The position numbers and the translations under genes are program-made. From Calditrichota bacterium (GTDB lineage: Bacteria; Calditrichota; Calditrichia; RBG-13-44-9; J042), in assembly GCA_013150955.1 (NCBI GenBank), contig JAADJD010000050.1, forward strand, positions 1-35,879: a DNA stretch of 35,879 nucleotides. The letters are read 5' to 3'. The notes beneath the pieces are model-generated. The model was not told the DNA's origin. It searched no databases and was given only the letters and a program-made list of their open reading frames with translations. This document shows, piece after piece, positions 2,244 to 5,956 of the stretch. Positions within the stretch are counted from its first letter, which is position 1, and every line of letters begins with the position of its first letter.

Positions 2244-3728
2244 ATGAGACAAGGAGTTTCAAAAGCGGCAAATCCATGGCGGTTTTTTGCCCTTGCTCTT
2301 GGCATTTCATGGTTTTTCTGGCTATGGGTTCCATTGTTCGGTTGGAATGTTTGGACATTTCCTGCGATACTGCTCGGTGCCTTGGGGCTCTTCGGTCCGG
2401 CACTTGCGGAAATCATACTCATTTTTCGCACTCGCGATAAGGAACAATGGCATGATTACTGGCACCGTGTGTTTGATATCAAACGTATCGGAAAAAAATG
2501 GCATGCAGTCATCTGGCTCACCTTTCCTGCAATAAACACCGTTGCCATTTTGTTGAGTATTCATACCGGATTTCCATCGCCTCAATTTGACACGGCTAAA
2601 AATCTACTGTCCGAACCGTGGAGAATCCCGGTATTCATGCTTTTCGTCTTGATTTTTGGCCCGGTGCCTGAAGAACTCGGTTGGCGTGGTTATGCTCTGG
2701 ATGGCCTGCAAGCCAGGTATAATGCCCTTGTCTCAAGTCTTATCGTGGGGACGATATGGGCATTATGGCATATTCCTCTTTTCTTCATGAAGGGCACTTT
2801 TCAACATGACCAACTGAGATTGGGCACACTAAATTTCTGGACATTTGTCTTTGGCACGATTATTACTTCGATCTTGTTCACCTGGATTTACAACAATACC
2901 AACCGCAGTACTCTATCTGCCATCCTTTTTCATTTTATGATCAATTTTAGTGGCGAGCTTCTTTCGCCAACAGAGCAGGCCCGGCTTTACAGCATGGTGC
3001 TGGTTACTGTTTTATCAATGATCGTGGTGGTTTTCTGGGGACCTGAAACTCTGACTCGTCAACAGGGTAAGGAGAAGCGGAAGACGTGTTTTGCGGGCTG
3101 GAAAGTGATCGTGAGGCGTTTTCTTGGCAAGGGGATTTGTCCATATCAGCTCTCGTTCATCCTGGACTCTCCATTTCGAAGGCTCGTTCTTTCTCCTCAG
3201 AAGCTGGCTGATCGCCTCCATCTTGAAAAAGATTCACGAGTGCTTGAAATAGGTCCGGGGTCGGGTTACTTTAGCGTTGAGGTTGCACGACGCATCCCGC
3301 AAGGACATTTGGAATTACTCGATCTACAACAGGAGATGCTTGAAAAAACCCGTCGGAAACTTGAAGCAGCAAGGATACATAATGTAGGGTGGACTCTTGG
3401 AGATGCTATCCATCTTCCCTTTGGTGAGAATGAGTTCGATGTTGTTTTTCTCGTCGCCGTTTTAGGTGAGGTGTCAGATCCAGAAGCGTGCCTTCAGGGC
3501 ATCTACAAAGTTCTCCGACCATCAGGTCTTCTCTCCATCACCGAACAACCGGGAGATCCCGACTTCCTCCCTCTATCGGCCGTCCGTTCGTTGGCTGAAA
3601 AACAGGGATTTGAATTCGTCGAGAGCTACGGCAGGAAAAAGAATTACACCGCAAACTTCAGAAAGCCGATTTGGATTAGGCAGGACCCTCCTCAGGTTAG
3701 TAATGGATATCCTACTGACCGGGGATAG
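2244..3728 (+). CDS. CPBP intramembrane protease fused to SAM-dependent methyltransferase
   Basis: One 494-residue frame with two complete-looking domains. Residues 1-270 are a multi-pass CPBP (CAAX protease/bacteriocin-processing) protein. Motif 1 is EELGWRG (E143, E144, R148), motif 2 is WALWH (H176), and motif 3 is HFMIN (H230, N234), so the metal/glutamate-type active site looks intact. Residues 290-480 are a class I methyltransferase: SAM loop EIGPGSG (335-341), an acidic LLDLQQ strand, GDAIHLPF and the post-I motif LRPSGLLSITE. GKGICPYQLSF at about 295 resembles the natural N-terminus of stand-alone methyltransferases of this type, so two genes seem to have joined without a stop. Substrates are unknown. 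The ATG at 2244 has only a weak purine-rich region upstream. The fusion itself is what I see; any joint function is inference. Confidence 0.85.
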   Translation: MRQGVSKAANPWRFFALALGISWFFWLWVPLFGWNVWTFPAILLGALGLFGPALAEIILIFRTRDKEQWHDYWHRVFDIKRIGKKWHAVIWLTFPAINTVAILLSIHTGFPSPQFDTAKNLLSEPWRIPVFMLFVLIFGPVPEELGWRGYALDGLQARYNALVSSLIVGTIWALWHIPLFFMKGTFQHDQLRLGTLNFWTFVFGTIITSILFTWIYNNTNRSTLSAILFHFMINFSGELLSPTEQARLYSMVLVTVLSMIVVVFWGPETLTRQQGKEKRKTCFAGWKVIVRRFLGKGICPYQLSFILDSPFRRLVLSPQKLADRLHLEKDSRVLEIGPGSGYFSVEVARRIPQGHLELLDLQQEMLEKTRRKLEAARIHNVGWTLGDAIHLPFGENEFDVVFLVAVLGEVSDPEACLQGIYKVLRPSGLLSITEQPGDPDFLPLSAVRSLAEKQGFEFVESYGRKKNYTANFRKPIWIRQDPPQVSNGYPTDRG

Positions 3729-5762: not shown

Positions 5763-5790
5763 AAAAAACCCGCTGGCATCCGGCAGCGGG
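5763..5790 (-). terminator. trp-type attenuator (terminator arm)
   Basis: On the minus strand CCCGCTG ... CAGCGGG forms a 7-bp GC-rich stem (5769-5790) followed by six T (5763-5768). It lies between the leader peptide stop and the trpB2 ribosome site, so it would end transcription before trpB2 when it forms. Confidence 0.85.
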
Positions 5791-5830
5791 CTGGATTTTT
5801 CGGGGACAATATCGCACCTGACCCACTGCC
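5782..5830 (-). promoter_or_regulatory. antiterminator of the trp leader
   Basis: GGCAGTGGG (minus strand, 5822-5830) can pair over nine bases, one of them a G-U wobble, with CCCGCTGCC (5782-5790), which is the first arm of the terminator. The two structures exclude each other. The upstream arm begins eight bases after the leader stop codon. A ribosome finishing the leader would cover it, while one stalled at the Trp codons would leave it free. Confidence 0.75.
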
Positions 5831-5837
5831 ACTGCAG

Positions 5838-5906
5838 TTACGTCCACCACCAGTAAAACCAGTTAAATAGAAAACGTAATGGTACTCGCTTCAATTGAAT
5901 CTTCAT
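5838..5906 (-). CDS. trpL: trp leader peptide
   Basis: A 22-codon frame ending NWFYWWWT-stop, with four Trp codons among the last seven sense codons. Trp is rare in random short peptides. The cluster is followed at the correct distance by mutually exclusive antiterminator and terminator stems and then by trpB2. This is the classical layout of transcription attenuation by ribosome stalling. The start is ATG at 5906; an in-frame ATG at 5924 would add six residues. Neither has an obvious Shine-Dalgarno, so the true start is uncertain. The frame stays open further upstream to 6065 but that part lacks leader character. Confidence 0.8.
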   Translation of the reverse strand: MKIQLKRVPLRFLFNWFYWWWT

Positions 5907-5956
5907 GTTGAATAATTTAACCATTGATTGGGAAAAATCAAGGATTTTTAGAGAAT

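Follow-up and report, generated by a model that had tools for sequence, protein, structure and literature searches.

In the trp operon of E. coli, attenuation of the Yanofsky type (Rfam family RF00513) combines a short open reading frame carrying tandem Trp codons with mutually exclusive antiterminator and intrinsic terminator helices, and the structural gene lies behind them. A leader of the same layout precedes trpB2 in the genome studied here (the host, G000), which its named relatives place in Calditrichota; this leader differs from the E. coli attenuator in that its target is a single trpB2 gene, its protector hairpin appears to be weak or absent, and it has no significant match to the Rfam model. 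Predicted trp attenuators of Actinobacteria, including the one predicted for trpB2A of C. diphtheriae (PMC1262725), likewise contain double or triple Trp codons and control two trp loci of one genome, but the second trpB of C. diphtheriae is in an operon with trpA, whereas the host trpB2 is of the TIGR01415 family, stands alone and comes from another phylum. The trpRBA salvage operon of Chlamydia trachomatis (PMC7755916) also places an indole-salvaging enzyme under Trp-responsive control, and its trpR-trpB arrangement resembles the trpR-trpB2 pairs of Calditrichota sister families described below. There, however, control runs through TrpR plus YtgR, with TrpBA as the enzyme, and trpL is unproven, whereas the host is predicted to use attenuation in cis, without TrpR. 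The trpB2 of Geobacter belongs to the same enzyme family, and indole scavenging is proposed for it in an excerpt of PMC2700814; unlike the host gene it lies inside the trp operon, and that excerpt mentions no attenuator.

TrpB2 is an orphan beta subunit, usually encoded apart from trpA, and its role has so far rested on enzyme kinetics and gene context. TrpB2 enzymes that have been studied make tryptophan from indole together with O-phosphoserine or serine (Busch 2014, cited by PMC11917138). Leader peptides themselves had been shown only in Proteobacteria and Actinobacteria until a 2010 survey added Firmicutes (PMC2965389). Our search of the open-access literature found no report of attenuation in Calditrichota or of trpR-trpB2 linkage, which does not prove that there is none, and no report of an attenuator on a stand-alone TIGR01415-family TrpB2. 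Vitreschak et al. reportedly predicted some attenuators in Bacteroidetes/Chlorobi in 2004. The mechanism that we propose is thus the classical one of Yanofsky; it is the target that is unusual and informative.

Layout of the trpB2 leader region

All elements of the attenuator, and trpB2 itself, are encoded on the minus strand of the window, by which we mean the whole stretch of 35,879 nucleotides analysed, and the attenuator lies between an engB-like GTPase gene and trpB2 (Table 1). A reading made from the sequence alone had proposed a 22-codon frame ending in Trp codons, an antiterminator arm, a terminator with six T, and a trpB2 with its own ribosome site, and each was found where it had been placed. 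In particular, the arm claimed to follow the leader stop is present and pairs with the first strand of the terminator, from which it is separated by 29 bases. The leader frame ends in NWFYWWWT-stop. Its start is uncertain, because the ATG has no clear Shine-Dalgarno sequence and lies only about 8 nt downstream of the putative -10 element; an in-frame ATG at 5924 offers a possible N-terminal extension of six residues. The promoter-like block is shared by the host and its congener G001, in contrast to the leader codons after it, which diverge. It matches the consensus at only 8 of 12 positions, and a strict sigma-70 scan accordingly reported no promoter.

Table 1. Coordinates of the trpB2 attenuator and adjoining genes within the window
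Feature	Position	Strand	Details
engB-like GTPase gene	6656-6069	-	Upstream gene
Promoter-like block (putative)	5914..5941	-	TTGATT (5941-5936), 16 nt, TAAATT (5919-5914)
Leader peptide ORF	5906-5838	-	22 codons, MKIQLKRVPLRFLFNWFYWWWT; Trp codons 5861-5859 and 5852-5844
Strand 2, antiterminator 5' arm	5830-5821	-	GGCAGUGGGU, 10 nt; 7 nt past leader stop
Strand 3, common to antiterminator and terminator	5791-5782	-	GCCCGCUGCC; pairing and covariation
Intrinsic terminator	5763..5792	-	Stem-loop AGCCCGCUGCCGGAUGCCAGCGGGU (stem 5792-5767), then UUUUUU (T 5768-5763)
Full attenuator, extent of the covariance model R1 match	5763..5861	-	E = 1.3e-12; sequence itself in the model, match expected
trpB2 Shine-Dalgarno	5727-5722	-	AAGGAG; from sequence, kept in G001
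trpB2, stand-alone tryptophan synthase beta chain 2	5716-4397	-	439 aa; TIGR01415, NF009057

The gene itself is a trpB2 by profile score, with 659.8 bits for TIGR01415 (curated cut-off 518.85) and 723.4 bits for NF009057 (cut-off 366); the nearest solved structures in the PDB are 6hul, 4qys and 6hte. The gene downstream (2244-3728, plus strand) points the opposite way, and trpB2 is therefore probably alone in its transcript, as a single-gene transcription unit. This neighbour encodes a CAAX-protease-like (Rce1) domain fused to a methyltransferase domain.

Competing helices and their conservation

To ask how often such an arrangement is found, we counted as Trp-cluster leaders those short ORFs in which eight codons include three Trp or more and behind which a terminator lies. 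Leaders of this kind are present in 13 of 104 distinct trpB2 upstream regions and 8 of 28 trpE upstream regions, and 40 rounds of dinucleotide-preserving shuffling of the trpB2 set produced none, which excludes a chance origin of the arrangement. Clusters of Trp, the rarest residue, were more frequent than those of any other. A density of four Trp in seven codons is reached by just one further short ORF of the window, which is nested out of frame within a longer gene. The folding energy of the whole host leader is unremarkable (z = -0.76), and the case therefore rests on comparison. Rfam gave sub-threshold matches only, with the Trp_leader family RF00513 at 16.2 bits, where its gathering score is 41; the trpB2 attenuator works like this family and is not a member of it by sequence. 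A covariance search for T-boxes (RF00230) had no match in the leader region or anywhere in the host genome.

We next looked for the best helix between the terminator first arm and the spacer that runs from the Trp codons to the terminator. In the host, strands 2 and 3 form 10 pairs, or 11 with the next base, and 1 of 1000 shuffled spacers did as well. All tested trpB2 attenuators of the order, together with those of KSB1 and SulCav, have antiterminators of 8-13 pairs, equalled by at most 28 of 1000 shuffles and mostly by none. The distance from the Trp run to strand 2 is 9-16 nt in the order and SulCav, and 6 nt in KSB1. No antiterminator could be demonstrated in trpB2 leaders from Chlorobiota (L040), Bacteroidales (L101, L106, L108) and the Deltaproteobacteria-labelled L089. 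A 1:2 protector (pause) hairpin of the textbook kind is not supported: shuffled spacers folded equally well in 58 of 500 rounds. By calculated energy, the host antiterminator segment (-20.9 kcal/mol) is more stable than the terminator (-14.7 kcal/mol), so that a ribosome over strand 2 would be needed to favour termination.

Covariation was assessed in 11 anchored sequences, eight from trpB2 and three from trpE. Their arms were aligned manually with GGG/CCC as anchors, which biases the percentage paired toward structure. Changes on both sides are found in 6 of 10 pairs of the antiterminator and 5 of 9 pairs of the terminator, and include U-A to C-G and G-C to A-U. For both helices, the covariation score was reached by no shuffle and was lost when the partner strand was slid. 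Despite the hand anchoring, such double changes would be hard to explain other than by paired structure.

The hairpin could simply be the terminator of the engB-like gene, with the Trp-rich ORF fortuitous: that gene does lie upstream on the same strand, and the hairpin is a good intrinsic terminator. Yet strand 2 covaries with strand 3, the arrangement appears in no shuffle, and in G005, G007 and G012 the Trp run and strand 2 are kept with the terminator despite a different spacing to the upstream gene. These data largely refute the idea, which we now regard as very unlikely.

Attenuation of trpB2, the reading that we prefer, is also borne out by its retention among relatives. The attenuator is kept at 8 of the 9 trpB2 genes of the order with readable upstream DNA (G000, G001, G005, G007, G009, G012, G013 and, in weakened form, G014); G003 and G011 were left out of the count because a contig end lies too near trpB2. 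In G014 (locus L007), the competing hairpins are intact and Trp codons are only scattered in the leader, MQQRSTQITQNWRQPIRNGNGWGAYLRT; the Trp run there may have been lost by decay, or its TGG repeats may have collapsed in the assembly. The trpB2 of G006 has no attenuator, and its product falls in a Bacteroidota lineage of the TrpB2 tree. In G013 (locus L173), a tandem duplication of about 38 nt inside the attenuator repeats strand 2 (TTGGCGGTGGGTAATTTG...). The leaders of relatives had been named beforehand as the place to check the proposal, and in the order the Trp codons are conserved and the competing stems covary.

The comparison with G001 separates what is kept from what is not. The two TrpB2 proteins are 94% identical, while their leader peptides show no relation over the first half: the G001 leader, MKVRGVLPQMPIGFNWLYWWWT, has only its Trp-rich end in common with that of the host. 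The promoter-like block, the W-x-Y-W-W-W-T-stop end, strand 2, the terminator and the Shine-Dalgarno sequence are kept, and the remainder has diverged. Such a remnant would be expected if selection acted on the codons and the RNA and not on the peptide. It also bears on the idea that the leader is a functional small protein, possibly active in trans as well, with attenuation in cis secondary. A trans-acting trp leader peptide is known, the peTrpL of Sinorhizobium (PMC7298713), but a peptide whose first half is unrelated between two species with such similar TrpB2 makes a comparable role here extremely improbable.

In all likelihood, then, trpB2 is governed as a single-gene unit by a classical leader-peptide transcription attenuator. 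Ribosome stalling, which had been proposed from the sequence, gains support from the conserved Trp runs, the near-constant spacing and the covariation of both exclusive helices. When charged tRNA-Trp is scarce, a ribosome would stall at the WWW run, with strand 2, some 13-22 nt farther on, left available for pairing with strand 3; this pairing would block the terminator and let RNA polymerase read into trpB2. With ample tryptophan, the ribosome would get as far as the UAA, which lies seven bases upstream of strand 2, and cover the 5' part of that strand, so that strand 3 would pair with strand 4 and transcription would end at the T run. TrpB2 is thus very probably induced only when tryptophan is short, and would then most likely convert indole to tryptophan alongside the separately attenuated trp operon.

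Other leaders and Trp control in the class

At E <= 0.1, the covariance model has exactly two matches in the host genome, the trpB2 site and the leader of trpEGDCFBA. Both are training rows of the model, and the informative part is the absence of further ones. The trpEGDCFBA attenuator (L112 14296-14160, minus strand; G000:C49) is built from the same module, with the leader MNGFLFKYTPKKSWWWWTLTRSGWRW. Were trpE to begin with the GTG at L112 14198, it would overlap the terminator; its true start should therefore lie downstream. In relatives, the model cross-matches a His-codon leader before hisG (G012) and a Tyr/Phe-codon leader before DAHP synthase (G005). In counts made without a shuffle control, a His leader with terminator is present at 19 of 25 hisG loci of the class, including that of the host (MIRFHQNNLHHHHCHHHTRLRDGTGELRMI; L206, G000:C3), and a Phe/Tyr/Trp leader precedes DAHP synthase in seven genomes of the order, again including the host (MASTERLNHFFGFYFGYYYWTQ; L238, G000:C23). 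Inspection by eye showed perfect antiterminators in both of these host leaders, of 11 pairs at hisG and 17 pairs at the DAHP synthase gene, each with a terminator. Weak model matches (E > 1e-4) are untrustworthy: those read, at G033 and G039, are plain terminators behind other genes, as is a stronger match at G018, which was rejected.

Since the trp operon, hisG and DAHP synthase genes carry leaders of the same design, attenuation is routine in the host, and leader-peptide attenuation is an ordinary mode of control in Calditrichota rather than an isolated event. An attenuator on an isolated trpB2 had been called unexpected; this holds for the target, which is unusual, and does not hold for the genome, where the trpB2 leader is no isolated oddity. 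The shared design also speaks to a TnaC-like arrest, in which the nascent peptide would sense free Trp and trpB2 would be induced by its excess. A short Trp-containing ORF does precede a gene of indole and tryptophan chemistry here, as such a model would have it. However, TnaC-type arrest depends on specific peptide residues, whereas the trpB2 leader peptide is unconserved outside its Trp run, and the same design stands before the biosynthetic trp operon and, coded in His, before hisG. We consider such an arrest highly improbable, and retain attenuation by a stalled ribosome.

Sister families of the host's class link trpB2 to Trp control in another way. There, 19 genomes have trpR, and in every one of them it is the immediate upstream neighbour of trpB2, with a gap of 15-52 nt in the loci read (L013, L014, L017-L024, L026, L028-L031). 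No TrpR was found in the host genome, and trpR was found in none of the 16 genomes of its order (the host and 15 relatives). In the TrpB2 tree, the attenuated lineage (support 100/100) is separate from the trpR-linked lineage (98/85), which is nearer to Desulfobacterales, Spirochaetes and one Bacteroidales sequence. A swap of regulators on one inherited trpB2 was rejected on this ground, and because the trpR-linked TrpB2 is a different lineage, trpB2 must have come under Trp control on at least two occasions. Outside Calditrichota, Trp-cluster leaders were seen upstream of trpB2 in Chlorobiota, in Bacteroidales and in a single Deltaproteobacteria-labelled genome. Seven genomes with a Trp leader on trpB2 were searched for trpE, and all four with a full-length match (G061, which is SulCav, G062, G063 and G065) have a Trp leader before trpE too. 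Leaders at L069, L104, L110 and L111 were set aside as doubtful.

The role of TrpB2

The host itself has a complete trp operon besides TrpB2. In G005, G007 and G012, trpB2 is attenuated, but no TrpB1 or TrpA is detectable and the only TrpE matches are PabB/MenF-like; genes may be missing from drafts, but G005 is a single-contig genome, 92% complete. The KSB1 genome G060 likewise has an attenuated trpB2 and no TrpE match. A trpD-family match of some sort is present in 37 of 39 searched genomes. One trpD paralogue adjoins yceG (mltG), in the host at L259 4069-5118 and in G005 at L258 4720-5736; this yceG-adjacent gene, the second copy of the host and the copy of G005, is probably not an anthranilate phosphoribosyltransferase.

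The relatives without detectable trpE, trpA and trpB1 point to tryptophan made from indole that the cell does not produce itself. Indole salvage would be the simplest reading of trpB2 where TrpA is missing, and in the host, where the operon is complete, TrpB2 would serve to rescue indole or to provide extra capacity. That TrpB2 serves real tryptophan supply, as had been suggested from the attenuator, is strengthened both by these relatives and by the trpR-trpB2 pairs of the sister families. On balance, we favour a joint reading in which separate TrpB2 lineages of Calditrichota came independently under Trp control, one order through attenuation and the sister families through a neighbouring trpR, because the task of TrpB2 is indole salvage, as a dedicated tryptophan synthase and the sole one left in several members; attenuation would be the phylum's general form of amino-acid control.

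Leader-peptide attenuation responding to Trp, His and Phe/Tyr thus appears as routine control in a phylum for which we found no such report. Trp-responsive control in two TrpB2 lineages, kept in genomes without the rest of the pathway, provides genetic evidence for TrpB2 as a source of tryptophan, with indole salvage as the simplest route, and the attenuator gives this orphan subunit a testable role.
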